Origin: a virus
Length of the DNA: 20,342 nt
IMG/VR virus record: IMGVR_UViG_3300010354_000884
Coordinates: 1-20,342 of that record
Strand: one strand, 5' to 3'
The notes below the pieces were generated by a model that was not told where the DNA came from, ran no database searches, and saw only the letters and a program-made list of their open reading frames with translations. Shown here piece after piece: positions 2,085 to 20,342 of this stretch. The position numbers were made by a program, and so were the translations under genes. Position 1 is the stretch's first letter, and each line of letters starts with the position of its first letter.

Positions 2085-2094
2085 ATTGGGTTTT

Positions 2095-2757: not shown

Positions 2758-2769
2758 TCAGGAGCAAAA

Positions 2770-2931: not shown

Positions 2932-2937
2932 TAAATA
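2930..2937 (+). promoter_or_regulatory. T4-like late promoter for gp25
   Basis: AATAAATA matches the late -10 octamer of T4 (TATAAATA) and the cyanophage form NATAAATA, which is read by host polymerase with the phage late sigma factor gp55. It overlaps the preceding stop codon and ends 20 bases before the gp25 start, so transcription would begin about a dozen bases upstream of the gene. It likely drives gp25, gp6 and the giant gene. Confidence 0.7.
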
Positions 2938-2957
2938 AGATAGAATTATAACATTCG

Positions 2958-3359
2958 ATGCCTTTACAGAGGGTAAGCCAAGGTTTTAGAGATATTAGTA
3001 TGACTTTTCAGAGCAATCCTCTGAATAGTGATTTGATTGCGCTTAAAAATGAGAATGCAATTGCAAGATCTATTAGAAATATTGTGTTTACCCTCCCTGG
3101 AGAGAAGTTTTTTAATCCAGATTTTGGTTCTAGAATATCAAGAACTCTTTTTGAAAATGTAGATGACATCTCTGCATCAATTATTGTTGATGAGATTAGG
3201 CAATCAATAATCAATTATGAGCCAAGAGTTAGATTAATTGATGTCCAATCCTTTCCAGATTATGATAATAATGCGTTTGATGTGACAATTATCTATGAAA
3301 TAATTGGAATAGATGTATCACCACAAGAATTACAATTTGTATTGCAACCAACTAGGTAA
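2958..3359 (+). CDS. 25: gp25-like baseplate wedge protein
   Basis: A 133-residue protein, almost the length of T4 gp25 (132). It reads PLQRVSQGFRDISMTFQSNP at the start, then LKNENAIARSIRNIVFTLPG, FNPDFGSRISRTLFEN and YEPRVRLIDV, the usual order in the gp25/lysozyme-like baseplate family that also contains type VI secretion TssE. In T4, gp25 sits in the inner baseplate with gp6 and gp53 and contacts the first sheath ring, helping to start sheath assembly. The EPR motif (within NYEPRVRLID) is the conserved core element of this family. The family name recalls lysozyme, but no enzymatic role is expected. It is preceded by a late promoter, and gp6 starts two bases after its stop. There is no clear Shine-Dalgarno sequence. 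The identification is strong. Confidence 0.95.
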   Translation: MPLQRVSQGFRDISMTFQSNPLNSDLIALKNENAIARSIRNIVFTLPGEKFFNPDFGSRISRTLFENVDDISASIIVDEIRQSIINYEPRVRLIDVQSFPDYDNNAFDVTIIYEIIGIDVSPQELQFVLQPTR

Positions 3360-3361
3360 AA

Positions 3362-5437
3362 ATGCCACTAGTAAACTTTTCTAATCTGGATTTTGACCAG
3401 GTTAAATCAACGCTTAAAGATTATCTAAAAGCGAATTCCAATTTTACTGATTACGATTTTGAGGGATCTAATCTCTCAACAATTATTGATGTCTTGGCAT
3501 ACAATACCTATATTACTTCATATAATGCAAATATGGTTGCAAATGAAGTTTTTATTGATAGTGCTACTCTTAGAGAAAATATTGTAGGTCTTGCTAGAAA
3601 TATTGGATACGTTCCTAGATCAAGAAAGGCAGCGAGAGCAACAATTAGTTTTTTTGTAGATACGACTGCACTAACAGTTGCTCCACCAGCATCACTTACT
3701 CTTCATAAAGGTGTAGTTGCGTCTACATCAGGTTCTTTTGGTAATCAATCTTTAGTATTTTCTATTCTTGATGACATCACAGTTCCTGTTTTCAACGGTA
3801 TTGCAACGTTTAATGAAATACCGATTTATCAAGGTTCGTTTTTATCTACTAATTTTACATATAGTGCAAGAAATGTAAATCAAAGATTTGTACTACCAAA
3901 CACCGGAATTGATACTGAGCTGATATCTGTATCGGTTAAAACTAATGAAAACTCAACATCTTCGGTAAAATACACACTTCAAGATAGTTTGTTCACTGTA
4001 AAGTCAGACTCAAACGTATATTATATACAAGAAGTAGAAGATGAAAGATATGAACTTCTTTTTGGTGATGGGATTTTTGGCAAAAAATTAGAAGAAGGAA
4101 ACTATATTACTGCAAATTATATCGTTTCTAATGGTGATAGTGGTAATGGAGTAAGTCAATTCTCATTTGCAGGGAGACTCTCGTATACAAGAAATTCTAT
4201 AAACTATCCAGTAGAGTCTGGTATTTCTTTACTATCTGCAGGTTTAATATCTTCTGGTGGAGAAAACATAGAGTCTGTAGATTCTATTAAAAAATTTGCA
4301 CCAAAAATATATGCATCTCAAAATAGAGCACTGACTGCCGATGATTATGAAACATTAATACCAACAAGAATTTACCCAGAAGCAGAATCTATATCAGTTT
4401 TTGGTGGGGAAGAGTTAATACCTCCACAATATGGAAAGGTCTTCATTAGCATTAAACCAAGATTTGGAGACTTTTTACCAAATCTAATTAAAGAGAATAT
4501 TAAATTAAAACTTAAAAAGTATGCAGTTGCTGGAATAGTTCCGGAAATTTTAGATTTAAAATACTTGTATTTGGAAATCAACTCTAAAGTTTATTATAAT
4601 ACAAATTCTGCTCCCTCTGCAGAAACGGTATCAAGTTTAGTTCAAGCAAATGCAACAAAATATGCAGAATCTTCAGAACTAAACAAGTATGGAGCAAGAT
4701 TTAAATATAGCAAATTCTTGAAAATAGTTGATGATAGTCACGAATCAGTAACTTCAAACATTACAACTATACAAATTAGAAGAGATTTGAGAATTGTATT
4801 AAATGCTTTTGCAGAATATCAAATTGGATTTGGTAATGAGTTTCATATTAACAGTATGAATGGATACAATATTAAAACAACAGGATTTAGAGTGTCTGAC
4901 ATTCAACAAGATGTTTACATGTCGGATATTCCAAATACAGATAGAGTGACTGGAACTCTTTTCCTGTTTACTTTGCCATCTGCAAATTCAACAAGTCCAA
5001 CAATTGTTAGAAGAAATGTTGGAACGATTGATTATAAAAAAGGACTTCTAACCATCAATCCAATTAATATACAAGCAGGAAAAATAAAAGATGGTCAGTC
5101 TATTATTGAAATATCTGCTGTACCACATTCAAACGATGTTGTCGGATTACAGGACTTATATTTGCAACTAGATATAAGTAACAGCAATTTTGAAATGATA
5201 GTGGATAGTATTTCCTCTGGATTGGATCCATCAGCATCAAATTACATTACTTCTTCAAGCTATGCTAATGGGTCTCTAGTTCGTCAAACTGGTGAAATTG
5301 GTGCAGCATCTGCAAATGTTGTTGTTTCTACTACAACAGGAAGTGCTACCAATCCAAGCACAACAACAGTTACAACTACAACAGGAAGGACCAGTACATT
5401 TACCACTGGTACATCATCTTCTGGATCATCCTATTAA
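3362..5437 (+). CDS. 6: gp6-like baseplate wedge protein
   Basis: A 691-residue protein, near the 660 of T4 gp6, of the baseplate J/gp6 family. Two gp6 chains per wedge form the inner ring that holds the baseplate together and changes shape on contraction. Seen here: the N-terminal FDQVKSTLKDYLKANSNFTD, then LSTIIDVLAYNTYITSYNAN, NEVFIDSATLREN and GYVPRSRKAARATISF (about residues 1-100). These are typical of cyanophage gp6. A central region with ERYELLFGDGIFGKKLEEGN and LTADDYETLIPTRIYPEA fits the J-like domain. The last 40 or so residues (about 653-691) are almost all Ser, Thr and Gly and are not part of the T4 protein. The gene follows gp25 by two bases and precedes the giant gene by 18. 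Identification is strong. Confidence 0.95.
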   Translation: MPLVNFSNLDFDQVKSTLKDYLKANSNFTDYDFEGSNLSTIIDVLAYNTYITSYNANMVANEVFIDSATLRENIVGLARNIGYVPRSRKAARATISFFVDTTALTVAPPASLTLHKGVVASTSGSFGNQSLVFSILDDITVPVFNGIATFNEIPIYQGSFLSTNFTYSARNVNQRFVLPNTGIDTELISVSVKTNENSTSSVKYTLQDSLFTVKSDSNVYYIQEVEDERYELLFGDGIFGKKLEEGNYITANYIVSNGDSGNGVSQFSFAGRLSYTRNSINYPVESGISLLSAGLISSGGENIESVDSIKKFAPKIYASQNRALTADDYETLIPTRIYPEAESISVFGGEELIPPQYGKVFISIKPRFGDFLPNLIKENIKLKLKKYAVAGIVPEILDLKYLYLEINSKVYYNTNSAPSAETVSSLVQANATKYAESSELNKYGARFKYSKFLKIVDDSHESVTSNITTIQIRRDLRIVLNAFAEYQIGFGNEFHINSMNGYNIKTTGFRVSDIQQDVYMSDIPNTDRVTGTLFLFTLPSANSTSPTIVRRNVGTIDYKKGLLTINPINIQAGKIKDGQSIIEISAVPHSNDVVGLQDLYLQLDISNSNFEMIVDSISSGLDPSASNYITSSSYANGSLVRQTGEIGAASANVVVSTTTGSATNPSTTTVTTTTGRTSTFTTGTSSSGSSY
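5330..5388 (+). repeat. 14-base direct repeat in the Ser/Thr-rich tail of gp6
   Basis: ACTACAACAGGAAG occurs at 5330-5343 and 5375-5388, 45 bases apart, which is exactly 15 codons. It encodes part of the low-complexity Thr/Ser/Gly tail. It looks like a recent in-frame duplication or slippage product. Confidence 0.6.
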
Positions 5438-5455: not shown

Positions 5456-8400
5456 ATGATAGAAAAAAGAATTAAGTTTCAGAACATCGTTCAGAATCAA
5501 CTTCCTTCTTATGTGAGGGAAGAATTTCCTTTAATAGCAGAATTTTTAAAACAATACTATCTTGCTCAAGAATTTCAAGGAGCTCCAGTTGATCTTATTC
5601 AAAATATTGATAAGTATATAAAATTAGATGAGACAGCTAATTTAGTAGAAAGTGTAATATTAAAAACTAATCTGGATTATCTGGATACAACAATTGAAGT
5701 TGATTTAATTCAATCACCATCAGGAACTAATGGATTTCCAGATTCTTATGGACTATTAAAAATTAATGATGAAATAATTACATATACGGGAAAAACAACT
5801 AACACCTTTACTGGTTGTATAAGAGGTTTTTGTGGCATAACAGATTATGTTTCCGAAACTAATCCTGAACAGTTAACATTTTCATCATCAAATGCCGAAC
5901 TTCATAGTGGAAGTTTATATAATGTAAACAACGAACTTGTAACAAAAGGTGCAGAGATTAAGAACCTTAGTGTTCTTTTCTTAAAAGAATTTTTAAAGAA
6001 GACAAAACATCAATTTTTACCAGGATTCGATAATAGAAATCTAGCAAAAAACTTAGATCAAAGCCTTTTTATTAAGCAGTCAAAGGATTTTTATGCGAGT
6101 AAAGGAACTGATCGTTCCTTTGAAATTTTATTTAAAGCTTTATATAACGAAAATGTTGAAGTTGTAAGACCAAGCGAATATTTGCTCACACCATCTAATG
6201 CAAACTATAGAGTAACAAATGATCTTGTTGTAGAAAGTATTTCTGGTGACCCAACTCAATTAGAGAATTCCTTCATATTCCAGGATGAGTATGGTTCTTT
6301 ATTTTCTAAAGCATACGCTCCAATAACTAATATTCAAAAAATAGATTCTGGTGTAGGAAAAACGTTCTATAAACTTAGTTATGATGCGGGATATAATAGA
6401 GATATTATTGTTGATGGTTCATTATATGGTGGATTTAAAGTACATCCAAAGACAAAACTAATTAGTAGAGTGTCTGCTGGTGCAACTGTACTTGATGTTG
6501 ATTCCACAGTTGGATTTGGAACTTTTGGAGAACTTTTTGTAACATATAACGATACTACAACTGGTATAGTTTCATACACATCAAAAACATTAACACAGTT
6601 TTATGGGTGCTCTGGAATAACGGGAATTATTCCAGATGCGTCTGAAGTTGGAATAAACACATATGCTTATGGTAAGTATTATACGTTTGAGAACGTAGGA
6701 ACTGCACTGACTGTCAGAACAGAAAATATCGTAACTCTCAGAATTAATTCAGTTCTTTCCGACTTAGAATATGATAAAAACTCTTACTATTATACACCAA
6801 AAGACACAGTAATAATAAAGACCCTTGGTTCTTCAGCTAAAGATTTCCTATCAAGAAATTGGTTTTATAATGTTTCATCTACTCATGAAGTTGAAAAAAA
6901 TGGATTGGTTCTTCTCAACACCTCAAATAATACTTATAGCATAACTTTAAAATCTGAACATTATTTCCGAGAGGGAGATATTATATCAATTATTGAAGGA
7001 AAAGTAGAAAGAGAGACTGCAGTAATTAGTGCAGTAACTTCCAAAAAATCTTTCCGCGCAACTCTTGGCAGTAGATTTTCATTATCTCTAACCGAAGACT
7101 ATAAAGTTAAAAGAAAAATTATAAAGGCTCAATCAAATACATTTAATCTCGACAAATATTCTGCTAACGTTCAGAATGTTTATACAAGTTCTTCTGAAAC
7201 TGGAGATAAAGCTAAAAAGATTTTAGTTTCTTCACCATCTTTACCATATTATAATTCTCAACCAACTGATGTAACTGATAGATCGGTTACATTTTCTGGA
7301 ACATTTACTTCAAATAGTAACGGAACTGAATTTACAATAAACAATCACAATTTCTATACTGGAGATGCAGTTTACTACGTCCCAGAAAAAATAAACAACC
7401 AGTATACAAATCTCTCTGGAATTAGTAGCACGGGAGTTGTTGTAAATTCTAGCATATTTAATGATGATAATTTTGTTGTTACTGGAATTGTTAATGGAGA
7501 AGAAGTTTCAAATAGAATTCCTACAAATGAAAAATTATATTTTGTTAAAAAAATTAACGGGAACAAAATAAAACTTGCTAGAAGTAGAGATGATATTTTT
7601 AACTCCAAATTTATAGATATTGGTTCAAACAAAACTGTAACTAATAATAAATTCGTTCCTTATGATTTTAGATTAAAAACTTTAGAACCACAAAAAATTC
7701 TAAGAGAAGTATCAGAACCATCAGTTGATGGCAAGTTCTATGAAACAGAACCTGGACTTAATGGAATCTTAGTAAATGGAGTTGAAGTTCTTAACTACAA
7801 ATCAACTGAGCAAATTAGATATGGCAGAATAGAGGAAATTGAAGTTGTATCGCCAGGAACAGATTATGACGTAATAACTCCACCTCTAATTAATATTGTT
7901 GATAGTGTAGGAACAGGTGCTACAGGATACGTCGCTGTTTCTGGTTCACTAGACCAAATAAGAATTATAGATCCAGGATTTGATTATCAAGAAACTCCAA
8001 AAGTTAATATTTCTGGAGGAAATGGTTCTGGTGCTGTCGTAGCAGTAAATATGAAGTTAGTTGAGCATTCAGCGACTTTCTTCTCGGATGCTGGTTCTGC
8101 TAAAGTTTCTATAGGATCCTCTTCATCTACAATTGGATTTGGAACTGCTCATAGATTTAGAAATGCTGAGCAGGTAATTTATATTACCAACAATCAAACT
8201 GAAATTGGTGGTATTGTAGATAGAGCAACGTACTTTGTATCAGTTATCGATCCATTAACAGTAAAGTTGCATCAAAATCAACCTGATGCAATTTCTGGAA
8301 TAAACACGGTAACTTTATCTTCTTTTGGTGTAGGAAAACATGAATTAAAATCATATAATAACAAGTCAGTAATAGAATCTATTAATGTTATTGATAGTGG

Positions 8401-11400
8401 GTCTGGTTATCAAAACAAACAAAGAACAACAAATTCAACTTCGGGAGTTAGCACCTCTCTTGGGCAGTTAACAATTCAAAATCATGGTTATAATTCTGGA
8501 GAAATAATCAGATATGTTGGAGTTTTAACTACATCAGATACTCCTATTGGGGGAATTACTACTAATACTGATTACTATGTCACCAAAGTTGATGAAAATA
8601 ATATTAAATTATCTTCAGTTGGTGTGGGAACAACCAATAGTGATTTCTATTATCAAACAAAACAATATGTAGATTTAACTTCTAAAGGAAGTGGAATACA
8701 TCTGTTTAATTATCAACCAATTACAGTTAGTGTTTCTGGAGCAGCACAAGTTTCTGCAACTATCCAACCAATTTTTAGAGGAGGTATAGACTCAGTTCAT
8801 TTGGTTAATAAAGGTGTTGGGTATGGTTCGTCAGAAGTTATTAATCTGAATAGACAACCACAAATAACTTTAAGAAGTGGTAAAAATGCTCAACTATATC
8901 CAGTTATAAACGATGGAAAAATAGTTGAAGTTTTAGTTGTAAATCAAGGAGTTCTATATAATTCCCCACCTAATTTAATCATAGTTGGTGATGGAGTCGG
9001 TGCAGTAGTAACCCCAGTAATGAATGGTTCAGTACTACAGTCCGTAAAAGTAATTGAAAGTGGTATTGGTTATACCCAATCTGCCACTTCAATAAGAGTC
9101 GCTTTTTCTGGAAATGGTGCTTCTTTTAAAGCAAATATACAAACTTGGAGAGTGAATCTTTTCCAGAAATATTTTAATACTTTTACTGATGATGATGGTA
9201 TTATTTGTGAGGGAATTAATAAAAAGTTTGGACTACAATATTCTCATTTATATGCTCCAAGAAAACTTAGAGAATCTCTTTATTCAACTGATCAGAATGG
9301 ACAGACTCTGTACGGACAAAAAGATCTTCCTTTTGTTAATGGAAAAGAATCAACCCCAATAAATCACTCACCAATAATTGGTTGGGCTTATGATGGTCAT
9401 CCAATTTATGGTCCATATGGTTACGTAAGTAAGTCTGGTGGAATTATTGCACAAATGAAATCTGCTTATGTAGAAGAAGCAGATAAAAAAGAAAACAGAC
9501 CACCAATTGGAGATGGTGAGGGACAATTCCCAGCTGGATTCTTTGTCGAAGATTTTACCTTTAAGAAATCAACTGACGAAACTGTACTCGATGAAAATAA
9601 TGGAAGATTCTGTGTAACACCAGAATTTCCAAAAGGAACTTATGCATATTTTGCAACTCTTAACACCTTATCTGTTGATGCAGCTCCACCATTCTTAAAC
9701 TATAAGAGACCTACTTTCCCATATTTGATTGGTAATAGTTTTAGAGGAATTCCCAATAAATTCAATTATAGATATGACTCAAACCAAGATGATTTTGATT
9801 TAAATACGACAGATTGGTTTAGAAACACTGATCCTTACAATTTACTTAATGGTAATGTCAATTATGATTATGTTTCAATACCAAACAAATTAAATCAAAC
9901 AATTGATATAACAGCAGTTTCTCCCGGATTCGTAGATAATGTTGGTATTGTAACTGGAGGTAACAATTACAAAATCGGTGATAATATAGTTTTTGATAAT
10001 TCTGGTACAGAAGGTGATGGTGCAGTAGCAAAAGTAACAAGAATTCTTGGAAAATCTGTCAATAGTGTAAGTGTTGCTACTAGTTCAATATTTAATGTAA
10101 GCATCGTTCCTTTTGATAATAGAGGAACATATAATGTTATTTGCGATAATCCACATAAATTCCAGAAATTTGACACTGTTAATATCACTGGATTGTCAAC
10201 ATCTTCTGCAAAAATTGAAGGTTCATATCAAATTGGTATTGGATCTACTGCAGTATTTTCAGTGGTAGGTCTCGGCACAACTTCACCAGGTATTGCAACA
10301 GTTGGTGCAACTGGAATTGTAACTTACTTTAGTGTTTCTGGAAGATTTGAAAATGTAAGGGAAAATGATATCCTTGGTATAGGAACAGAAAGAGTAAAAG
10401 TATTAAATATTGAACCAAGGCAATCAAGAATAAGAGTTTTACGAGCAGTTGATGGAACTGTTGGTGCATCTCATTCTGTAACTACAGTGTTGTACAAAGA
10501 TCCAAGAACATTTACCATAAATGTTGGATATAGTACAAATTATGATTATCTAGAAAATCGTGAAATATATTTCAATCCAGTAGAGTCTGTTGGACTTGGA
10601 ACCATTAGTGGTGTTGGTATTGGAACTACAATTTTCCTAGCAAATCCAGGTGCTGGAATAACTGCGATCTTCATTCCAACAAAGTCAATTTATATTAAGA
10701 ATCATAATTTAAATACTGGCGATCAACTTACATATTCTCCAAATGGAGGAAGTGGAATAGTAGCTCAATCTTCAGTAGGAACTGCACTAACTTTTTCTAA
10801 CCAACAGAAATTATTTGTTGCAAAAATAAGTGAAGACTTAATTGGACTAGCAACAGTTAGAGTTGGTTTAGGAACTACTGGAACTTTTGTAGGAATTGCT
10901 AGCACATGCAGATCTTCAACAACTCTATTCTTTACAGGAATTGGTACTGGTGTTTATCATAGCTTTAAAACTGATTATCCAGTAATAACGGGAGAAGTTG
11001 GTAGAAATATTGTCACAGTTTCAACTGCACAAACTCATGGTCTTTTAACGGGTCATAGTGTTTTTGTTGATGTCAATCCATCTATGGCATCAACATTCAC
11101 AATAACATATAATGATTATAATAGAAAAGTTTTATTCAATCCACAAACTTTTATTTCTTCAGGTGTTAATACTTCAACAAGTGCTATATCAATCTTAAAT
11201 CATGGATTTAAGACAGGACAAAAAGTTTTACACACTTCAGCAAGTCCTGCTGGTGGATTAAGTGATCAAAAAGAGTATTTTGTTGTCAAAGTAGATAATA
11301 ACAATTTTAAACTGTCAGATACTTATTATGATTCGGTTCAATTAAAACCAACAATCGTTGGAATTTCTAGCGTTTCTAATGGAACTCTTTCTCTAATTAA

Positions 11401-14400
11401 TCCACCAATAGAAGTTTATAGAAATTCTACAGTTGATTTTAACCTATCAAGTTCATCACTATCTTATATCAATCAAAGCACAAATTATCCAGCGTTTGAA
11501 TTAAATTTCTACTTAGATGAGAATTTTACAAATAAGTATGATAAGAACAAAGAAAGTTCTACTTTTGAGGTCAGAAGAAGTGGAACTGTAGGTGTTGATA
11601 CTAATGCCAAAGTCACATTAACTATAAATGAAAAAACTCCATCGGTTCTTTACTACAAATTAGAGCCATTATCAGACTCTCCTCAAGTAAAGCAAGAGGT
11701 AAACGTTGATAATGAAGTTTTATCAAATAATAGAATAGTTCCTAAGTTCAGTGTATATAATGGAAAGCATACTATAACTGTTGCTTCAACTAATACATTC
11801 ACATATACTATTAGTAAGGATCCAGAGAAAAGTTCTTATATATCAACAACTTCTTCAGCTATTCTTAAGTATGAAACAGATTGTGTAAATGCATATGGCT
11901 CAATAAGTAATATTGAAATAGAAAATGGTGGAAAGAATTACTATTCAGTACCAGGAATATCCACAATCAATAGTGGAATAGGTTCTGGGGCTATATTGGA
12001 AGTTTCTAGCAACTCTGTTGGTAAAATTAAAAACTTAAAAATTAAAAATATTGGATTTGATTTTCCTGCAGATAGAACTTTAAGACCAAGCACTGCTTTA
12101 CCAAAGATTATAAAAATAACTCCACTAGCATCTTTTGAATCTATCGGAGTTACTTCATTTGGTAGAGGATACACTTATGCACCAAAACTTTTGGTTTTTG
12201 ACGGAAAAACTAAAGATTTGATTAGAGACGTAGATTTGAAATATACTCTTGGTAACAATCAAGTTTCTATACTTAAAAATGTTTATGGCGTTAATAATGT
12301 AACACCAAACATACTCCCAATTCAGAATTCAAATGGAGTTGGAATTAGTACTATTCAATATAATTCAACAACTAAAGAAGTAGTTGTAACACTTGCAGTC
12401 GGATTTAGTACAGCGGACTCTTTCCCATTCGTTGTTGGTGATAAAGTTATGATTGAAAACACCAGTGTTGGTGTTGGAACTACTGGAAAAGGATTCAATT
12501 CTGAAGACTACAATTATCAACTATTCACTTTAACATCAGTTGATGAAAATAGAGGTGGTATTGGTTCAGTTTCATATAGTCTAAATGGAATAATTGGTAA
12601 TGGGGAAATAGTTGGCAAATTTAATCCAGCAAAGTCTTCTGGAAGAATTATTCCACAGAAACACTTCCCAACATTCAATCCAGTATTGAAAACGAGCAAT
12701 TACTCAGTTGGAGAAACTGTAAAGTCAACAACTTCATCTTTCTCAGGAAAAGTTGAAAGTTGGGATCCAAAAAATACTATTCTTAAAGTTTCATCAAAAG
12801 ATAATTTTGTTCCAGGAGAAGTTTTGGAAGGAACTTCCTCCAGAACACAAGGAATAGGTTCTTCAGTTTCAACTTTTGCATCATCTATAAACTGTAATGC
12901 ATCTTCTAAAGTGTTTGGTGGATGGCAAAGTAATTCTGGAGTTCTTAATAATAATTTACAAAGAATTCAAGATAGTTTTTACTATCAAAATTTCTCATAC
13001 TCTTTAAAATCAAAAGTAGATTATGACACTTGGAATGAGGTAGTAGGATCACTAAACCACACTCTTGGGTTTAGAAAGTTCTCTGACTACCAAATGGAAT
13101 CTCGTCCAAGCAATTCGGGTTCTGTTGGATTATCTACTGATGTTGGATACTTTGAAGTAATTAGTGATTTGGTTGGATTTGCTAACCTAAATTGTGTTTA
13201 TGATTTTGATCTTGTTAGAGAAAATTCAATTGATGTAAACAACAAACTAGTTTCCGATGAAATTGTATTTGCAAACAGAATTTTAACGGATTATGAGGAA
13301 TCAATCGGAAATAGAGTTCTTTCAATTGACAATTTAGGACCTCAATTTAATAGCAATCCAAGAGCAACAGCTTTTAGTATTGTTAATACATTTAAACTTT
13401 CAGATATTAGAGCACAAAAGTACATAACTTTTGTCACTGATAAGAGATTTGCTGCTCAAAGACAATTAATGTTGGTTGATTTGATTCATGATGGTTCATT
13501 TGCGTACATCAATCAATATGGAAGAGTTGAAACCCAATATGATCAAGGTTCTTTTGATTTCTCAATTTCCGGTAATGAAGGTCAACTTTTATTCTATCCA
13601 GTAAAATCTGCGGTTAATGATTACAATATCACTTGCCTGTCATATAACCTAGATGATAACTTACTAAGCACGGGTTCAACTTCTATTGGTGATGTTGCAA
13701 TAATTGATACCGATAGTCTTTCACTATCCTCTGGAATAACAACAACAATTGTTTCCATAGCAAACACATATAGTTCACTTAAAGTACTTGTTCAAATTAC
13801 TCCAGATATTAACTATCAAGAATTTGAATTTGAGGAACTTAATATCGTTCATGATGGAACAAATATTGAATTGTTAGAGTATGGTCAACTAACAACTATT
13901 CCTACAGCGTTTGCTGCTCCTGGATTAGGAACTTACTATCCATATTACAGTGGTTCAAAGTTAAATGTTGACTTTATTCCAAATGCTGGTGTTGGTATTG
14001 GTACAACGGGTGCGATTAATACAATTTTAGTTGGATTAGCTAATTCCTCTTATAGTGGAATTGGCACAATTAATATGAAACATGCCAGAATTGAAGCTAG
14101 AACAACCACGATACCATCTTCAGGTTCTCCAGGAATACACACTATTGCTCAATATGAAAATGAATATGATGCAGCTTATTTTGTAGTACAAATAGCAGAT
14201 ACTACAAATAATAACTACCAGATATCTGAAGTAATAGTCGTTGATGATTTCATAGCATCATCTGGTACTGGAGATACTTATGATACAGAGTTTGGAATTG
14301 TACAAACATCTTCCGGATTAGGTACAATTGGTTCAAGAGTTTCTGCTGGAGGAACTGTAGAACTTCTCTTCACTCCAAATCCAAGTATTAACACTCAAGT

Positions 14401-17400
14401 CAAAGTGTATATGAATGCACTTAGACATGAGGATGAAAGTAGAGATGAAATTGATTTCAATAATGGAACAATAGAGACTTTCTATAGTGATTACACTGGA
14501 ACTGAAAGAGATATCAAGAGATCTTTCCAACTAAATCATAAAAATTATCCAATATTTGAAAGATATTTTGTCGGAAGTGCTACTACCATCGTAAGTGTTT
14601 CTGAGGATACTATTATTATTCCTAATCACTTCTTTGTAAGTGGAGAAAACGTTGTATATCACTGTGCAGGTGCAGGAACAACACAAGCTATTGGAATTGC
14701 AACTACTTCATTATCAGGTGTTGGTTCAACAGATAGATTAACTCCAGGTATTACAACAAGTCTTTATGTAGTTAAAGTTGACAATAACAAGATTAAACTT
14801 GCATCAAGTGCAGAAAAGGCACTTAAAGTTGTTCCAGAAACTTTAGATATTACTAGTGTTGGTATTGGAACTTCTCACAGATTTGTTTCTACGAATCAAA
14901 ATCCAAAAGTTATTATATCATTAGATAACATCATCCAATCACCTATAACAAAAACTGACATAACTACAACTCTTGCAGAACCAGTTCTTGTAACTGATGA
15001 TACTGTTAAATTTAGTGGCATTACATCTTTCTTTGGTTCCGATTTAATAAAGATAAACAACGAAATTTTAAAAATAGAAGGTGTTGGTATCGGAAGCACT
15101 AATATAATTAGAGTTCGTAGAAGTTGGTTAGGCACATCTGTGGCAGGACACTCCACAGGGTCTACTGTGACTAAAGTTGTTGGAAATTATAATATTTTAG
15201 ACAATACCTTAACATTCAGTGAAGCTCCATATGGCAACACCCCATTAGGAACAAGCACAAATCCACCAGATGAAAGGGATTGGATTGGAATATCAACATC
15301 ATCTTACTTCTCTGGAAGAGCTTTCCTTCGTTCTGGAATTAAAAATACTGTTAATGAAACATATACTCAAAATTATGTTTTTGATGATATATCTTCTGGT
15401 TTTGATGGAACAAACAGTCTATTTACATTAACTTCTGAAGGTTCAAATGTTAGTGGAATAACAACCAATACAGTTATTCTTATTAATGATGTTTTCCAAG
15501 GAAGAGGTGCTGCATTTGACTATTCTATTTCAGAAAGTGCAGGAATTTCTTCTATAACTTTTGTTGGTTCTGGAATATCCGTTACCTCAGATATCAATAC
15601 TTCAAACCGTCCAATTGGTGGAGTTATTCTGTCAGTTGGTTCCACGGAAGGATTTGGATATCAACCACTCATTTCTGCAGGTGGAACTTCTATAGTTTCC
15701 TCTGCTGGAACTATTCAATCAATTAGTATTGGAAATAGTGGTTCTGGATATAGGGCAGAATCATCTTATGAAATTCTCACAGATGTTTCTTCAGCAGTTG
15801 GTGTTGGATCTACGGAAATATATCTAGAAAATCAAAATAGTGTATTTAATTTACTCAATTTACTGAATACTGGAAACAACTGTAGTATTGGACTAGGAAC
15901 TTTTGGAATTCAAACTCCAATAGTTTCAGTTGCTTCAACCTTTGTTCGTATTGGTATTGGAAGCACAACACCATATGCAATTCCAGCAGGAACACAAGTT
16001 AGTGTAAAAATACAAAATCCTCAAATTGGAATTGTTAATGTAAGTGTTGCAAATAGTTCAGTTGGTATTGTGACAACAACTCATGTTGGATTTGCTACTA
16101 TTATTTCTGGAAGAATTTCTACATCTGTTACTATAACAAATGCTGGTTCTGGATATACATCTACAAATGCACCTCTTGTTATTATTGATGATCCAGACTC
16201 TTATACAAATATTCCTTTAATTTACAGTTCTTCTTCTGCTGGTGTTGGAACCGGTGCAAAAATTGATATTGTAGTTGGGCAAGGTTCGAGTGTAGTTGAC
16301 TTTGAAATTACCAATACTGGTTATGGATTTAAAAACGGTGATGTTTTGACAATTCCTATTGGTGGATTAGCAGGAATACAAACAACATCAAACTTTAAAG
16401 AATTCCAAGTTACTGTCCAAAGAATATTTACAGATGAATTTACAGGATGGTCGCTAGGTGAACTTGAAATATTTGACAATTTTGAAGACTTATTTGACGG
16501 CGAAACTAAGGCATTCCAATTGAAGAAAGATGGAGTAGTTAAGTCTATAGTAGCTGGAAAGGGTTCAAATATTGACGTTCAGGATGTTCTTCTTGTATTT
16601 GTTAATGATATATTACAAGTTCCTGGTAAGGGATATGTATTTACTGGTGGAAGTGTTATAACGTTTACCGAAGCACCAAAAGTTGGTGATACTTCTAAAG
16701 TTATTTTCTATAAAGGAACTGGAAGTGTTGACGTTGTTTCTAGAGAAATAATAGAAACTGTAAAACCTGGAGATGAGTTGACAATTGGGTATGATTCATC
16801 CATAGGTCAGCAACCATATTTACAAGAAGATGAGAGAACAGTTTCTGCAGTAACTTCTACAGATTCTGTTGATACACTTCCATACTTTGGTCCAGGAAAT
16901 GTTAATGATGAGAATTTACTAAGACCTGTTGTTTGGTGTAGACAAACTGAAGATAAAGTTATTAATGGTAAAGAAATTGGAAAGGATAGGGAATTATACG
17001 AACCAACCATCAATCCATTTGGATATATCATTAAGTCGGTTGGTATTGGATCAACGATTGTATATGTTGATAGTGTAAGACCATTCTTCAATCCACAAAA
17101 TGAGAGTGCGGTCTCTATTACTTTCCAAAACAGTGTAAGAATCATATCTCAAGATTCTAAGATAGCAGCTGCTGCCACCGCAGTAGTTTCTGCTGCTGGA
17201 ACCATATCATCAATTATTATCAATAATGGTGGAAATGGATATACTTCATCGCCAACTGTAAGTATTGGCAATACCTTACAGTCTGTTGGTCTTGGAACGA
17301 CAGCAATTGCAATTTCTTCAGTAACTTCTGGTGTAGTCACTAGCATCACGTTAACTAATTCTGGAACTGGTTATAATCAATCTAATCCACCCAAAGTTCT

Positions 17401-18001
17401 AATTTCTCCACCAGTTTCTATTACAGAAACTAATAGTGTTTCATCTTATGCTGGAGATTATGGAATTGTTGTTGGATTTGGAACTACTACTCAGACATCG
17501 GTTGACAAATTTATCTTTGATTTATACCTACCAAAAGATTCTTTCTTAAGAAATTCATCTTACGTTGGAACTGCTATCACTCTGAGTCAAATTGATAGTA
17601 ATGATTACTTTATTGTTTACAATTCAAATGTTGGTATTGCAACAACATCAATAACTTCAAAAGATATTGATGGAAATAATATTGGAATAGGTACAAGGTT
17701 TGTTGATAACGTGTATCAGGTAGATTCAGTTACAACAACTCAATCAAATATTATAGGTATTGGACTAACTCACGTTAGAAGAGTTTATGTTAGAGTTGTT
17801 GGAATGGGAATTACAAATTCTGGAATTATTACTTCATCAAACTATTTTGGCGAATTTAGTTGGGGCAAAATTTCACTTGTCAGCAGATCTGAATCAAATT
17901 CATTCAATTTTTATGGCGATTCTGGTATTTCTGGCATTAAAACATCATCTATTGTCCAAAGAACAACTCCTTTGAAATATCAAAATTATTTGGAAATTTG
18001 A
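5456..18001 (+). CDS. Giant modular virion structural protein, at the gp7 position
   Basis: One uninterrupted frame of 4181 residues. It lies between gp6 and gp8, where T4 has wedge gene 7 (1032 residues), so a peripheral baseplate or tail role is likely. Homology to gp7 is not shown. Residues 1-260 (from IKFQNIVQNQLPSYVREEFP to FYASKGTDRSFEILFKALY) look like a conserved anchoring part. A YHYH-type domain lies near 1300-1402. QDSFYYQNFSYSLKSKV starts at 2506, followed by a conserved-looking region to about 2760. The C-terminus carries SNYFGEFSWGKISL (about 4127-4142). Between these are repeated beta-rich modules: about 15 GxGY units, at least six NHxxxTG units, four E-I-RG units and two or three FVND units, joined by many VGIGTT-like linkers. 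I see no catalytic site, signal peptide or membrane segment. There is no good ribosome site; it is probably read through from gp6. Confidence 0.9.
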   Translation: MIEKRIKFQNIVQNQLPSYVREEFPLIAEFLKQYYLAQEFQGAPVDLIQNIDKYIKLDETANLVESVILKTNLDYLDTTIEVDLIQSPSGTNGFPDSYGLLKINDEIITYTGKTTNTFTGCIRGFCGITDYVSETNPEQLTFSSSNAELHSGSLYNVNNELVTKGAEIKNLSVLFLKEFLKKTKHQFLPGFDNRNLAKNLDQSLFIKQSKDFYASKGTDRSFEILFKALYNENVEVVRPSEYLLTPSNANYRVTNDLVVESISGDPTQLENSFIFQDEYGSLFSKAYAPITNIQKIDSGVGKTFYKLSYDAGYNRDIIVDGSLYGGFKVHPKTKLISRVSAGATVLDVDSTVGFGTFGELFVTYNDTTTGIVSYTSKTLTQFYGCSGITGIIPDASEVGINTYAYGKYYTFENVGTALTVRTENIVTLRINSVLSDLEYDKNSYYYTPKDTVIIKTLGSSAKDFLSRNWFYNVSSTHEVEKNGLVLLNTSNNTYSITLKSEHYFREGDIISIIEGKVERETAVISAVTSKKSFRATLGSRFSLSLTEDYKVKRKIIKAQSNTFNLDKYSANVQNVYTSSSETGDKAKKILVSSPSLPYYNSQPTDVTDRSVTFSGTFTSNSNGTEFTINNHNFYTGDAVYYVPEKINNQYTNLSGISSTGVVVNSSIFNDDNFVVTGIVNGEEVSNRIPTNEKLYFVKKINGNKIKLARSRDDIFNSKFIDIGSNKTVTNNKFVPYDFRLKTLEPQKILREVSEPSVDGKFYETEPGLNGILVNGVEVLNYKSTEQIRYGRIEEIEVVSPGTDYDVITPPLINIVDSVGTGATGYVAVSGSLDQIRIIDPGFDYQETPKVNISGGNGSGAVVAVNMKLVEHSATFFSDAGSAKVSIGSSSSTIGFGTAHRFRNAEQVIYITNNQTEIGGIVDRATYFVSVIDPLTVKLHQNQPDAISGINTVTLSSFGVGKHELKSYNNKSVIESINVIDSGSGYQNKQRTTNSTSGVSTSLGQLTIQNHGYNSGEIIRYVGVLTTSDTPIGGITTNTDYYVTKVDENNIKLSSVGVGTTNSDFYYQTKQYVDLTSKGSGIHLFNYQPITVSVSGAAQVSATIQPIFRGGIDSVHLVNKGVGYGSSEVINLNRQPQITLRSGKNAQLYPVINDGKIVEVLVVNQGVLYNSPPNLIIVGDGVGAVVTPVMNGSVLQSVKVIESGIGYTQSATSIRVAFSGNGASFKANIQTWRVNLFQKYFNTFTDDDGIICEGINKKFGLQYSHLYAPRKLRESLYSTDQNGQTLYGQKDLPFVNGKESTPINHSPIIGWAYDGHPIYGPYGYVSKSGGIIAQMKSAYVEEADKKENRPPIGDGEGQFPAGFFVEDFTFKKSTDETVLDENNGRFCVTPEFPKGTYAYFATLNTLSVDAAPPFLNYKRPTFPYLIGNSFRGIPNKFNYRYDSNQDDFDLNTTDWFRNTDPYNLLNGNVNYDYVSIPNKLNQTIDITAVSPGFVDNVGIVTGGNNYKIGDNIVFDNSGTEGDGAVAKVTRILGKSVNSVSVATSSIFNVSIVPFDNRGTYNVICDNPHKFQKFDTVNITGLSTSSAKIEGSYQIGIGSTAVFSVVGLGTTSPGIATVGATGIVTYFSVSGRFENVRENDILGIGTERVKVLNIEPRQSRIRVLRAVDGTVGASHSVTTVLYKDPRTFTINVGYSTNYDYLENREIYFNPVESVGLGTISGVGIGTTIFLANPGAGITAIFIPTKSIYIKNHNLNTGDQLTYSPNGGSGIVAQSSVGTALTFSNQQKLFVAKISEDLIGLATVRVGLGTTGTFVGIASTCRSSTTLFFTGIGTGVYHSFKTDYPVITGEVGRNIVTVSTAQTHGLLTGHSVFVDVNPSMASTFTITYNDYNRKVLFNPQTFISSGVNTSTSAISILNHGFKTGQKVLHTSASPAGGLSDQKEYFVVKVDNNNFKLSDTYYDSVQLKPTIVGISSVSNGTLSLINPPIEVYRNSTVDFNLSSSSLSYINQSTNYPAFELNFYLDENFTNKYDKNKESSTFEVRRSGTVGVDTNAKVTLTINEKTPSVLYYKLEPLSDSPQVKQEVNVDNEVLSNNRIVPKFSVYNGKHTITVASTNTFTYTISKDPEKSSYISTTSSAILKYETDCVNAYGSISNIEIENGGKNYYSVPGISTINSGIGSGAILEVSSNSVGKIKNLKIKNIGFDFPADRTLRPSTALPKIIKITPLASFESIGVTSFGRGYTYAPKLLVFDGKTKDLIRDVDLKYTLGNNQVSILKNVYGVNNVTPNILPIQNSNGVGISTIQYNSTTKEVVVTLAVGFSTADSFPFVVGDKVMIENTSVGVGTTGKGFNSEDYNYQLFTLTSVDENRGGIGSVSYSLNGIIGNGEIVGKFNPAKSSGRIIPQKHFPTFNPVLKTSNYSVGETVKSTTSSFSGKVESWDPKNTILKVSSKDNFVPGEVLEGTSSRTQGIGSSVSTFASSINCNASSKVFGGWQSNSGVLNNNLQRIQDSFYYQNFSYSLKSKVDYDTWNEVVGSLNHTLGFRKFSDYQMESRPSNSGSVGLSTDVGYFEVISDLVGFANLNCVYDFDLVRENSIDVNNKLVSDEIVFANRILTDYEESIGNRVLSIDNLGPQFNSNPRATAFSIVNTFKLSDIRAQKYITFVTDKRFAAQRQLMLVDLIHDGSFAYINQYGRVETQYDQGSFDFSISGNEGQLLFYPVKSAVNDYNITCLSYNLDDNLLSTGSTSIGDVAIIDTDSLSLSSGITTTIVSIANTYSSLKVLVQITPDINYQEFEFEELNIVHDGTNIELLEYGQLTTIPTAFAAPGLGTYYPYYSGSKLNVDFIPNAGVGIGTTGAINTILVGLANSSYSGIGTINMKHARIEARTTTIPSSGSPGIHTIAQYENEYDAAYFVVQIADTTNNNYQISEVIVVDDFIASSGTGDTYDTEFGIVQTSSGLGTIGSRVSAGGTVELLFTPNPSINTQVKVYMNALRHEDESRDEIDFNNGTIETFYSDYTGTERDIKRSFQLNHKNYPIFERYFVGSATTIVSVSEDTIIIPNHFFVSGENVVYHCAGAGTTQAIGIATTSLSGVGSTDRLTPGITTSLYVVKVDNNKIKLASSAEKALKVVPETLDITSVGIGTSHRFVSTNQNPKVIISLDNIIQSPITKTDITTTLAEPVLVTDDTVKFSGITSFFGSDLIKINNEILKIEGVGIGSTNIIRVRRSWLGTSVAGHSTGSTVTKVVGNYNILDNTLTFSEAPYGNTPLGTSTNPPDERDWIGISTSSYFSGRAFLRSGIKNTVNETYTQNYVFDDISSGFDGTNSLFTLTSEGSNVSGITTNTVILINDVFQGRGAAFDYSISESAGISSITFVGSGISVTSDINTSNRPIGGVILSVGSTEGFGYQPLISAGGTSIVSSAGTIQSISIGNSGSGYRAESSYEILTDVSSAVGVGSTEIYLENQNSVFNLLNLLNTGNNCSIGLGTFGIQTPIVSVASTFVRIGIGSTTPYAIPAGTQVSVKIQNPQIGIVNVSVANSSVGIVTTTHVGFATIISGRISTSVTITNAGSGYTSTNAPLVIIDDPDSYTNIPLIYSSSSAGVGTGAKIDIVVGQGSSVVDFEITNTGYGFKNGDVLTIPIGGLAGIQTTSNFKEFQVTVQRIFTDEFTGWSLGELEIFDNFEDLFDGETKAFQLKKDGVVKSIVAGKGSNIDVQDVLLVFVNDILQVPGKGYVFTGGSVITFTEAPKVGDTSKVIFYKGTGSVDVVSREIIETVKPGDELTIGYDSSIGQQPYLQEDERTVSAVTSTDSVDTLPYFGPGNVNDENLLRPVVWCRQTEDKVINGKEIGKDRELYEPTINPFGYIIKSVGIGSTIVYVDSVRPFFNPQNESAVSITFQNSVRIISQDSKIAAAATAVVSAAGTISSIIINNGGNGYTSSPTVSIGNTLQSVGLGTTAIAISSVTSGVVTSITLTNSGTGYNQSNPPKVLISPPVSITETNSVSSYAGDYGIVVGFGTTTQTSVDKFIFDLYLPKDSFLRNSSYVGTAITLSQIDSNDYFIVYNSNVGIATTSITSKDIDGNNIGIGTRFVDNVYQVDSVTTTQSNIIGIGLTHVRRVYVRVVGMGITNSGIITSSNYFGEFSWGKISLVSRSESNSFNFYGDSGISGIKTSSIVQRTTPLKYQNYLEI
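7331..14810 (+). repeat. Dispersed NHxxxTG / YxVxxVDxNxIKL modules within the giant protein
   Basis: A unit of about 50-90 residues recurs. It starts with a strand and 'NH(G/N)(F/Y)xTG(D/E/Q)xVxY' and ends 'YFVxKVDxNxIKLS'. Clear copies begin near residues 626, 893, 1004, 1745, 1912 and 3053 (about bases 7331, 8132, 8464, 10690, 11188 and 14614). Further weaker relatives may exist, e.g. near bases 10140 and 11010. Copies differ a lot in sequence, so the duplications are old. They probably form small beta domains along a fibre or shell. Confidence 0.65.
7852..17373 (+). repeat. Dispersed GxGY modules within the giant protein
   Basis: About 15 copies of a short unit reading roughly 'IxSIxVxNxGxGYxxxPxVxI', often followed by 'GxGAxAxxxV'. 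They centre near residues 800, 840, 983, 1120, 1165, 1204, 1503, 2160, 2200, 2237, 3430, 3564, 3622, 3926 and 3970. They lie in clusters of one to three. Examples are VIDSGSGYQN, ITNAGSGYTS and INNGGNGYTS. A further copy (SSQGSGYTYG) is in gp8. Alternating hydrophobic residues with a Gly turn suggest beta-hairpins. Residue positions are approximate. Confidence 0.65.
9350..9661 (+). other. YHYH-type domain coding segment inside the giant protein
   Basis: About residues 1300-1402 contain HSPIIGWAYDGHPIYGPYGY (from H1304; W1310, D1313, H1315) and later DENNGRFCVTPEFPKGTYAY. This pair of motifs is the hallmark of the YHYH domain family. Here the name-giving Y-H-Y-H is replaced by Y-A-Y-F. The function of the family is not established; in this protein the segment is probably structural. 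Confidence 0.75.
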
Positions 18002-18003: not shown

Positions 18004-18011
18004 AATAAATA
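18004..18011 (+). promoter_or_regulatory. T4-like late promoter for gp8
   Basis: AATAAATA, identical to the element before gp25, starts two bases after the stop of the giant gene and ends 18 bases before the gp8 ATG. It would give gp8 and the next gene a late start independent of the 12.5-kb gene. Confidence 0.7.
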
Positions 18012-18029: not shown

Positions 18030-19574
18030 ATGGCTGCAATTATAACTGATCAAATTAGAATATTAAACGCGAAAAATTTTGTCGCTGATGTTGGCGTCAA
18101 TACGTATTATTCATTTATTGGTTTACCAAACCCTACAAATTATCAGTCTAACTGGGATTCTAGTCCTCCAGCGCCAAAAGACAACTTTGATCAGGAGAAT
18201 GATTATTGGGACACTATGGTTGCTCTGAAGAAAATCAATTCTTCAGATGTTAGGCAGGTTATTCCTAAAAGATTTTGGTCTTCTGGAATAACCTATGATT
18301 ACTATAGACATGATTATAGTAGATCAAATACTGCAAAAATTTCTGGTGCTACCAATTTATATTCGGCAAATTATTTTGTAGTTAATGATGATTATCAGGT
18401 CTACATTTGTCTTCAAAATGGAACAGACCCAGATAATCCAAATGGGAGACCTTCATTAGATAAACCAAATTTTACAGACTTAGAACCAAGATCTGCTGGA
18501 ACTAGTGGTGATGGTTATATATGGAAGTACTTATATACAATAAAACCAAGTGAAGTAGTAAAATTTGAGACAACTGATTTTATTCCAGTCCCAGAAAATT
18601 GGAAAACTGGAACTGATAACGCTGCTGTAAGAGATAATGCTATAGATGGTTCTATAAAAATTGTCGTAGTCACTGATAGAGGGGTTGGTCTAGGCACAGC
18701 AAATGCAACATACACTAGAGTCCCAATTAAAGGAGATGGTGCTGGAGCAGAATGCACTATTGTAATTAATAATGATTCTAAAGTTGATACTGTAACAATA
18801 TCAAGTCAAGGATCTGGATATACTTACGGAAATGTGGATTTAATTGCTGGTGGTGTTCCAACTGGAACAACAAGACCAAAATTTGATGTTATCATCCCAC
18901 CAAAAGGTGGTCATGGAGCAGATATTTACAGAGAACTTGGTGCTTACAACGTTCTTCTTTATTCCAGAATCGAAAACGATAACGAAAATCCAGATTTTAT
19001 AACAGGAAATCAAATTGCTAGAGTTGGAATAGTACAAAATCCAGAATTATCAGTTGGAACGGTTTTAAGTGCAGATAAAGTTAGTGCTTTATCCGCATTA
19101 AGACTAACAGGAGCAGGATATAGTTCAGCAACTTTTATATCAGATTCTTATGTAACACAAACAGTTGCAACTGGAACTACTGCTGTAGGTAGAGTTGTAA
19201 ATTACGATCAAACAACCGGTGTTCTGAAGTATTGGCAAGATAGAAGTGTTTCTGGATTTAATACTGTCGGAACAGCACAAACATCGCCAAGATATGGATT
19301 TGATTTAACTGAATTTACTTCTTCTCCAGGTGTTGGAGGTAATCTCACAATTGTACCATCAACTGGATCAAACTTAGCTATTGATACATCTTTTACTGGT
19401 ATAAGCACAGTAATAAATAATAGAACATATTACCTTGGTCAGACTTTTGCCAATGGTGTTGCTGGTCCCGAAGTGAGAAAGCACTCTGGAAATGTTATTT
19501 ACGTTGATAATAGACCATCAATAACAAGGTCATCAAACCAAAAAGAAGATATTAAAGTTATTTTGCAGTTCTAA
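18030..19574 (+). CDS. 8: gp8-like baseplate wedge protein
   Basis: A 514-residue protein of the T4 gp8 type. T4 gp8 has 334 residues and forms a dimer in the baseplate wedge, binding gp7, gp10 and gp6. The N-terminal part shows the family pattern: FVADVGVNTYYSFIGLPNPT, PKDNFDQENDYWDTMVALKK, DVRQVIPKRFWSSGITYDYY, then YICLQNGTDPDNPNGRPSLD and GDGYIWKYLYTIKPSEVVKF. The middle (about residues 225-275) carries a GDGAGAECTIVIN...VTISSQGSGYTYG unit like the modules of the giant protein, and may account for much of the extra length. The region after it (PPKGGHGADIYRELGAYNVL) is again typical gp8. It has its own late promoter, no clear ribosome site, and the next gene starts six bases after its stop. 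Identification is strong. Confidence 0.93.
   Translation: MAAIITDQIRILNAKNFVADVGVNTYYSFIGLPNPTNYQSNWDSSPPAPKDNFDQENDYWDTMVALKKINSSDVRQVIPKRFWSSGITYDYYRHDYSRSNTAKISGATNLYSANYFVVNDDYQVYICLQNGTDPDNPNGRPSLDKPNFTDLEPRSAGTSGDGYIWKYLYTIKPSEVVKFETTDFIPVPENWKTGTDNAAVRDNAIDGSIKIVVVTDRGVGLGTANATYTRVPIKGDGAGAECTIVINNDSKVDTVTISSQGSGYTYGNVDLIAGGVPTGTTRPKFDVIIPPKGGHGADIYRELGAYNVLLYSRIENDNENPDFITGNQIARVGIVQNPELSVGTVLSADKVSALSALRLTGAGYSSATFISDSYVTQTVATGTTAVGRVVNYDQTTGVLKYWQDRSVSGFNTVGTAQTSPRYGFDLTEFTSSPGVGGNLTIVPSTGSNLAIDTSFTGISTVINNRTYYLGQTFANGVAGPEVRKHSGNVIYVDNRPSITRSSNQKEDIKVILQF
19412..19419 (+). promoter_or_regulatory. Possible internal late promoter inside gp8
   Basis: A third AATAAATA lies inside the gp8 coding sequence, about 160 bases before the next gene. 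Unlike the other two it is not at a gene boundary and encodes ordinary residues, so it may be chance. Confidence 0.2.
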
Positions 19575-19580: not shown

Positions 19581-20342
19581 ATGTCTCAGCAAACGAATCT
19601 CAACGTAGCTCCTTATTTTGACGATTTTGATCCATCCAGTGATTATCATAGAGTTCTTTTCAAACCTGGTTATCCAGTTCAAGCAAGAGAATTAACAACT
19701 TTACAATCCATACTGCAAAATCAAATTGAAAAATTTGGAAGGCATCTATTTAAAGAAGGCGCTAAAGTAATACCAGGAAACACATCGTATAATCCAAAGT
19801 ACTTTTGCATTCAATTAAATACAACTTATCAGGGTGTTCCAGTCGCTGCATATGCAGACCAGTTAGTTGGAACAAGAATTACTGGACAATCTTCTGGCAT
19901 CTCTGCATTTGTTGATTATGTTTTGCTACCACAAGATTCTGAAAGAGGAACTTTAACTCTCTACATCAACTATTTGAATTCTAGTACAACAAATAATTCA
20001 TCAGAAACCTTTTTTGATGGTGAGTTATTAACTTGTGATACTACTTTAACTTCCGGATTATTAGGAAATACTTCAATTTCTTCTGGAAGTCCTTTTGCAA
20101 TAACTATAGAGAATAATGCTTCTGCAATTGGATGTGCATATTCAATTCAAGAAGGTGTTTATTTTGTACATGGTACATTTGTAAATGTACAAAAAGAAAC
20201 TTTATTATTGGACCAATATTCAAATAGACCAAATTATAGAGTAGGTCTATATGTTCAAGAAGAAATTATTAATGCAAATATTGACGAAACTTTAAACGAT
20301 AATTCTCAGGGTTTTAATAACTACTCAGCTCCAGGTGCCGAT
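19581..20342 (+). CDS. DUF4815-type virion structural protein (3' end missing)
   Basis: The frame is open from the ATG at 19581 to the window edge: 254 residues, with the stop beyond. The N-terminus carries APYFDDFDPSSDYHRVLFKP and GYPVQARELTTLQSILQNQI, then EKFGRHLFKEGAKVIPG. This is the DUF4815 signature of phage structural proteins: an aromatic/acidic start, then F(K/R)PG.xVQARELTxLQ and FG.H.FK(E/D)G. In T4-like cyanophages such a gene often follows gp8. It is thought to be a baseplate-associated or fibre-like component, perhaps at the position T4 uses for gp9 or gp10; that is inference. The later part is beta-rich, with no catalytic motif. No ribosome site is obvious; it is six bases from gp8 and probably cotranscribed. 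Confidence 0.88.
   Translation, partial: MSQQTNLNVAPYFDDFDPSSDYHRVLFKPGYPVQARELTTLQSILQNQIEKFGRHLFKEGAKVIPGNTSYNPKYFCIQLNTTYQGVPVAAYADQLVGTRITGQSSGISAFVDYVLLPQDSERGTLTLYINYLNSSTTNNSSETFFDGELLTCDTTLTSGLLGNTSISSGSPFAITIENNASAIGCAYSIQEGVYFVHGTFVNVQKETLLLDQYSNRPNYRVGLYVQEEIINANIDETLNDNSQGFNNYSAPGAD

Follow-up and report, generated by a model that had tools for sequence, protein, structure and literature searches.

The virus record IMGVR_UViG_3300010354_000884 of IMG/VR raises the question of what kind of protein occupies the place of gp7 in a T4-like baseplate wedge operon. The window analysed here is the entire record of 20,342 bases, which is probably a fragment, and it is dominated by one open reading frame (ORF) at 5456..18001 on the plus strand (+), as are the parts of its product and the gp25, gp6, gp8 and DUF4815 genes given below. 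This ORF starts with ATG, is free of internal stops and encodes 4181 amino acids. The original prediction had described a single 12.5-kb gene taking up about 60% of the window, with a product about four times as long as T4 gp7; the ORF was indeed intact, covers 61.7% of the window and exceeds T4 gp7 4.05-fold in length (calculated mass 452.5 kDa vs 119.2 kDa). Pfam and PHROG profiles gave the operon order gp25-gp6-giant ORF-gp8, and the giant ORF therefore lies in the gp7 slot between gp6 and gp8, as had been proposed. Its product appears, with a probability of roughly 0.8, to serve a T4-related cyanophage as its gp7 wedge subunit, with a split core and with inserted and C-terminal arms.

The similarity to gp7 was first of all visible in searches of 177,635 PDB sequences. 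The single sequence yielded one match up to E 1, the gp7 of Klebsiella phage KP1 (E 0.028). A profile of residues 1-870 (A1; 56 rows without T4-type sequences, namely 55 of 90 non-redundant sequences, from 265, plus the window) yielded two matches up to E 1, both of them gp7 (E 3.7e-5), which fall at the segment 'DFYxxKGxxxSxxxLFKxLYxExV'. The same two gp7 sequences were the only matches up to E 5 for a profile of the 59-residue middle motif (A3; 20 proteins, also without T4-type rows), with E-values of 0.005 and 0.026 in gp7 residues 846-892. Searching with the whole middle block (A2; residues 2380-3060, 54 of 61 non-redundant sequences, from 142, plus the window) gave six weak matches to designed repeat proteins and tRNA synthetases, which were judged to be chance. 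When a T4-type gp7 profile from five phages was compared by hhalign with 14 tiles of the whole giant protein, residues 1-350 reached 96.5% and residues 2401-2750 reached 31.5%, with the remaining 12 of 14 tiles at or below 0.4%; a first run on seven segments agrees. The N-terminal and middle regions are those for which the original prediction had suggested a gp7 profile check, and its idea of an expanded wedge protein is borne out by these matches and by PDB searches with the single sequence, A1 and A3 that returned gp7 only. A profile of compact slot-7 proteins from the phages Mendera, X1 and ACP17 (482-503 amino acids) matched residues 1-330 (hhalign 98.4%) and the middle block (96.1%), and also T4 gp7 641-757, the N-terminal helix region (78.7%). 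The compact protein of Mendera reached 29.4 bits against Pfam Baseplate_wedge, above the cut-off of 27, and residues 197-242 of the giant protein reached 18.6, below it. As two separate motifs each pick gp7 alone and do so in the right order, though each search is modest in itself, these results confirm that the giant protein is a homologue of gp7 and not merely encoded by a gene in the gp7 slot.

Mapped along the chain, the regions shared with T4 gp7 are found in two distant parts. The protein begins with predicted core-bundle helices (residues 8-60; 5477..5635), for which 20 of 25 slot-7 proteins gave a match with a hidden Markov model (HMM) and which the structure model places, with low confidence, at residues 2-15, 18-23 and 25-39. 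Between these helices and the KGT motif lies a beta module of the 'IYVxS/ITY' family (residues 69-129; 5660..5842; HMM and model). The first gp7 anchor, 'FYxSKGTxxSxxxLFKxLY' (residues 200-252; 6053..6211), corresponds to T4 gp7 725-758 by profiles and motif HMM and is followed by a region predicted to fold like domain V of T4 gp7 (residues 249-438 here; 6200..6769); within this region the model shows a nested beta module (residues 331-402; 6446..6661). A giant insertion (residues 439-2489; 6770..12922) comprises GxGY, TGD and other beta repeats as well as a YHYH domain, recognised by HMMs and in the model, and includes a GExI module (residues 2422-2471; 12719..12868; HMM) just upstream of the second anchor. 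This anchor, 'DSxYYQxFSYxIxS...HPxGF' (HTLGF here; residues 2490-2548; 12923..13099), corresponds to T4 gp7 847-896, again by profiles and motif HMM, and is succeeded by a C-terminal extension of about 1,630 residues. Residues 249-438 of the model aligned with T4 gp7 760-847 at a borderline Z of 7.9 and a root-mean-square deviation (rmsd) of 2.4 Å over 85 residues, and with KP1 gp7 at Z 8.0; the alignment comes from a second look with VIA-align at the model of residues 1-870, and domain V comprises residues 766-861 in T4. It is the register of the match that persuades, as the KGT motif has its last residue at 252 here and at 758 in T4; the structure prediction that had been proposed as a check may also point to gp7. 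Residues 200-438 thus represent T4 725-847, and residues 2490-2548 represent T4 847-896, which leaves an insertion of about 2,050 residues near T4 847. At the level of sequence, these correspondences show that T4 gp7 725-896 is present but split by an insertion near T4 847. A reading with the insertion in place of T4 domain V was abandoned, as the structure alignment suggested that domain V is retained.

Several observations weigh against this assignment. Compared directly with T4, the middle motif reached only 28.5-31.5%, and the E-values of the PDB searches are modest. None of the five T4-type proteins is recognised by the family HMM for the N-terminal helices. The model of residues 1-870 is weak (mean predicted local distance difference test score, pLDDT, of 66, and about 45 for the N-terminal helices); in VIA-align, gp7 appears only at rows 35-36, with other parts of the model (residues 331-402 and 469-557) ranking higher (Z up to 9.6), and in Foldseek gp7 was not among the 50 matches listed for this model, which were headed by beta domains of other tail proteins and unrelated barrels. 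Residues 2475-2636 were unfolded in an isolated model (pLDDT below 50), which may reflect poor modelling but also fits a core that is completed only by its distant half. Moreover, two stretches of the insertion match the compact profile as well, the YHYH segment at 94.5% and residues 600-930 at 77.3%. As GxGY-type repeats in the spacer of the compact proteins match stretches of the insertion, a match to this profile alone does not prove a gp7 core, and the insertion stretches concerned are not gp7 core; they suggest that the giant insertion may be made partly of modules already present in compact members. No counterpart of T4 gp7 1-640 was found in the 14 tiles with the T4-type profile, and Pfam Gp7_5th gave no match to the giant protein up to E 1. 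As the repeat and motif HMMs were iterated on the very set of sequences used for counting, they give no independent E-values; shuffles and the separate profile searches serve as controls, and the core-motif HMMs gave 0, 1 and 1 of 200 shuffles at E <0.1.

According to a passage in PMC7029224, cyano- and pelagimyophages lack T4 gp7 and have VrlC in its place. If so, the giant gene would code for a structural protein without relation to gp7, such as a fibre for host recognition, which would agree with 12 of 14 tiles being without similarity to gp7. This appears highly improbable, as the two separate motifs each match gp7 alone in the PDB set and in the right order, with a third region matching by fold at a borderline score. 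In addition, VrlC (DUF4815) is encoded by a separate gene after gp8 here, in S-SM2 and in Mendera, which has a slot-7 protein of 503 amino acids. As VrlC is thus encoded in addition to the slot-7 protein, it does not take the place of gp7.

The gp7 reading also fits with a size series of slot-7 proteins, which range from 482 amino acids in an Acidovorax phage to about 6,800 in ACG-2014d. Both gp7 motifs were kept in order in 25 of 25 slot-7 proteins compared by HMM, with a spacing of 88-92 residues in five T4-type, 235-539 in seven compact and 1577-2818 in thirteen giant proteins. The proteins of ACG-2014d and S-TIM4 were covered over their first 5501 and 5428 residues in this comparison, as in those of distant relatives and of the C-terminal modules described below (hotspot units and D1-D3). 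As the giants span 1937 (S-CREM2) to about 6,800 amino acids (ACG-2014d), the protein with its 4181 amino acids is of middle size; those of P-SSM2, S-TIM4 and ACG-2014d are longer. In the stretch by which P-SSM2 gp7 is longer (residues 3405-4529), no Pfam family scored above its cut-off, with one at E 0.19. That giant structural genes are known in T4-like cyanophages, as the original prediction had noted, is documented by these longer proteins and by phrog_2885 ('baseplate wedge subunit'), which the giant ORF matches with 3995.5 bits (residues 1-3453 on profile positions 5-3362 of 4179); no NCBIfam family matched the ORF. Relatives of the N-terminal 348 residues were present in 480 of 50,697 phage records, of which 457 are named Synechococcus, Prochlorococcus or cyanophage, the best being S-SM2 gp7 (62.6% identity); the nearest named relatives of the source phage belong to the Kyanoviridae. 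As the family is already known and annotated (phrog_2885; 'gp7' in GenBank, e.g., for S-SM2 and P-SSM2), the protein is a new member of the giant gp7 family. In the open-licence PMC literature searched, no account of gp7 with a split core or with domains of gp9 type was found, most subscription papers lying outside this search.

Among individual systems, the closest are the gp7 proteins of the Synechococcus phages S-SM2 and Bellamy (Kyanoviridae; 4156 and 4067 amino acids), which occupy the same slot, share about 54% identity over the full length and have the same order of motifs; they differ in sequence only and were already annotated as gp7 or as baseplate wedge initiator or subunit. T4 gp7 (PDB 5IV5, 5HX2) has in common with the giant protein the operon position, the KGT segment (725-758), probably the domain V fold (760-847, at borderline Z) and the HPxGF segment (847-896), but its residues 1-640 are unmatched here, it lacks the roughly 2,050 residues near position 847, and it ends with domain VI (920-1012) and a terminal part where the giant protein has the 1,630-residue extension. 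The compact proteins of Mendera (Stenotrophomonas), X1 (Xanthomonas) and ACP17 (Acidovorax) share the N-terminal helices and the KGT and HPxG motifs, and their spacer matches GxGY-bearing parts of the giant insertion; in Mendera, genes annotated as gp8-type and DUF4815 follow the slot-7 gene as well. Unlike the giant protein, however, they have a spacer of 251 residues (2,238 here) and a tail of 45-66 residues, and Mendera has no YHYH domain.

The families of small repeats that the original prediction had described could be recovered with iterated HMMs, which counted eight GxGY, six TGD and five 'IYVxS/ITY' units in the giant protein and gave 0 matches in 50 shuffles each; one of the five 'IYVxS/ITY' units overlaps a TGD unit, and two of the GxGY copies score weakly (E 0.002 and 0.008). 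The product of the gp8 gene likewise bears one such GxGY unit (E 0.0015), which makes this repeat common to neighbouring wedge genes. The YHYH domain (Pfam PF14240; residues 1299-1403; 9350..9664) was found at E 5e-21 and 76 bits, above the cut-off, but it covers only the second half of the profile (positions 87-183 of 193). Annotated cyanophages carry it in their slot-7 ORF in 12 of 12 cases, each time between both gp7 motifs by coordinates, and none was detected in T4, in Mendera (the one of seven compact phages scanned) or in 14 control genomes.

The review PMC7824862 predicts YHYH proteins to be metal-dependent hydrolases in which three histidines and one aspartate form a zinc site, and it notes fusions to baseplate proteins. 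The YHYH domain might accordingly turn the arm into an enzyme that opens the cell envelope, a reading to which the presence of the domain in all 12 cyanophage slot-7 ORFs and the more complete copy of ACG-2014d (profile positions 22-185) would lend some support. Yet a complete PF14240 domain with the three-histidine and aspartate site is not found here: besides the truncated match, columns conserved in at least 97% of 105 relatives include a single histidine (H1304), next to four aspartates (D1290, D1313, D1366 and D1379). As a half domain with one conserved histidine lacks the required residues, the zinc-hydrolase prediction is unsupported for this group and such a role, which we regard as quite unlikely, was set aside. 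Judged by its residues, the putative domain was called a YHYH-related half domain and not a hydrolase.

In the C-terminal extension, three tandem jelly-roll domains were modelled with good confidence: D1 (residues 2630-2745; 13343..13690), D2 (residues 2740-2872; 13673..14071) and D3 (residues 2865-3020; 14048..14515), D1 and D3 being defined by model and hhalign and D2 by structure alignment and Foldseek. They are mutually homologous (pairwise hhalign 96-97.8%) and occur in 6 of the 13 giants; of these 13, ACG-2014d and S-TIM4 were scanned incompletely. D2 (residues 2745-2868) has the fold of the C-terminal jelly roll of T4 gp9, aligning with gp9 169-287 (1qex) at Z 12.3 and an rmsd of 2.6 Å over 116 residues. 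The next structure matches were the KP1 chain 9f4a_LA (11.1) and tailspikes (9.5 and 9.1), with other chains from 6.1 down; in Foldseek, 1qex was at rank 13 (E 3.5e-3, probability 1.00). By sequence, the similarity of D2 to a T4-type gp9 profile is weak (hhalign 23%, P 9e-4), and D1 and D3 reached 0.4% and 3.2%. D2 thus shares the fold of the long tail fibre socket of T4 (gp9, 1QEX), but gp9 is a trimer, three tandem copies stand in one chain here, and the fold also occurs in tailspikes. Further downstream lies an insertion/deletion hotspot (residues 3400-3600; 15653..16255), the length of which varies from 112 to 837 residues in 34 sequences and is 201 here. Longer versions hold up to six 'FxCxxD...HxYPR' units, their copy number varying from 0 to 6 among related contigs (for example in residues 3373-4209 of the relative L129); the giant protein here has none.

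In T4, as a section of PMC3004832 describes, the long fibre attaches to the C-terminal domain of gp9, which binds gp7 via its N-terminal domain. It might be speculated that cyanophage gp7 has absorbed the tail-fibre socket, with D1-D3 docking the fibre as a single-chain pseudo-trimer, the YHYH arm replacing the gp10-gp11-gp12 pins and most of the moving periphery being one polypeptide per wedge. This appears unlikely, and the distribution of separate gp9/gp10-type genes speaks against it: one is present in one of five annotated phages with D1-D3 (P-TIM68) and in three of seven without, two of these seven being ACG-2014d and S-TIM4, scanned for D1-D3 over the stretches given above. The difference is not significant (Fisher p 0.58), and a replacement of the separate gp9 gene by gp9-type domains was rejected on this count. 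S-SSM7 carries three gp9/gp10-type N-terminal segments (record positions 66614, 175613 and 188685); two of these are remote from the wedge operon and lie in open frames of 715 and 853 codons. The original prediction had further supposed that the protein might have grown an external fibre or whisker; a gp9-type fold would fit with the binding of an appendage, but an outgrowth that projects from the virion is unproven.

The giant ORF does not look like an assembly artefact, as it is intact in other viral contigs: 35 of 160 related frames, some of them near-duplicates, have stops at both ends together with the N-terminal block and measure 3929-4792 codons from stop to stop. The sets of related loci are samples of at most 80 loci per scan. 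When the ORF is compared with three close relatives, two of which are incomplete ORFs, each 500-residue block shows its differences mainly at the third positions of codons (p3 0.37-0.48, p1 0.11-0.22, p2 0.04-0.11). The conserved blocks at N-terminus, middle and C-terminus that the original prediction had noted are a property of the distant relatives; among 34 closer sequences, identity is spread over the full length (0.35-0.70 per 100 amino acids), with minima at residues 401-700 and 3401-3600. These 34 comprise 30 of the 35 complete ORFs (one of each of five same-length pairs being dropped), the window and three annotated phages. Such conservation over most of the protein points to a largely structural role.

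It is also possible, though less likely, that the insertions of an otherwise genuine gp7 form a passive shell that thickens the baseplate as a second layer and binds neither receptors nor fibres. The conservation over the whole length, with large insertions or deletions at residues 3401-3600 but not at the other minimum, residues 401-700, would agree with such a layer, as would the dominance of third-position changes in every block. Receptor-binding tips are usually more variable. On the other hand, the gp9-type jelly roll with its tailspike-like matches (Z 12.3, 9.5 and 9.1) and the YHYH domain are of kinds found in appendages or baseplates, and the hotspot varies from 112 to 837 residues.

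For a giant gp7 with a split core, the following architecture may be proposed. T4 gp7 is a monomer present in six copies per tail (stated in a part of PMC3004832), and one giant gp7 per wedge, six per tail, would be present likewise. The N-terminal helices and the KGT segment would join two gp6 chains. From there, a long arm of beta modules including YHYH would extend out of the wedge, the chain returning to complete the core with the motif at residues 2490-2548 and leaving again as a C-terminal arm, the tandem jelly rolls of which could offer a docking surface for fibres or other peripheral proteins. Both arms might thereby take over, covalently within gp7, some of the peripheral work of T4 gp10, gp11 and gp12 and part of that of gp9, and they would be carried outward together with the wedge as the baseplate switches. 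A passage of the review PMC2984593 states that cyanophages lack g10, g11 and g12. A comparable arrangement on a minimal scale is described in a portion of PMC10457771 for the gp7 orthologue of Vibrio phage XM1 (gp17, 242 amino acids), which forms a core bundle with two gp6-type chains and holds the tail spikes at the periphery with its loop 80-106 and its C-terminus; it is likened here by description, not by sequence. That such proteins can be part of the virion is indicated by Table 3 of PMC10665884, which lists the 1937-amino-acid slot-7 homologue of S-CREM2 in virions with 91 unique peptides and 27.2% coverage. This homologue carries both gp7 motifs according to the HMM comparison of 25 proteins. 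The result places gp7 in cyanophages, separates residues of the wedge core from added ones and names modules to be sought in structures, and the series from 482 to about 6,800 amino acids on one core is material for studying the growth of structural proteins by insertion at fixed places. In the ocean, cyanophages count among the most common viruses.

The other wedge genes of the window are gp25 (2958..3359; PF04965, phrog_261), gp6 (3362..5437; PF21379, phrog_219) and gp8 (18030..19574; PF09215, phrog_438), followed by the N-terminal part of the DUF4815 / 'VrlC' structural protein (19581..20342; PF16075, phrog_358), the gene of which is cut by the window end. Upstream, a 223-residue protein (2086-2757) matches phrog_3704 'ferredoxin', and the S-SM2 gene at the same place is named likewise. 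This name looks doubtful, as the protein has six cysteines but no CxxxxCxxC pattern. A 255-residue protein (1122-1889) belongs to phrog_1574 (unknown) and gave weaker matches to glycosyltransferase families; S-SM2 and Bellamy have genes of equal length at this place, a likeness by length and position. An enrichment of the late-promoter motif NATAAATA was rejected, as three sites in the window compare with 11.4 expected, fewer than in shuffles. Two of the three, late-promoter-like ATAAATA sequences at 2931-2937 and 18005-18011, are nevertheless located 26-28 bases upstream of the starts of gp25 and gp8.
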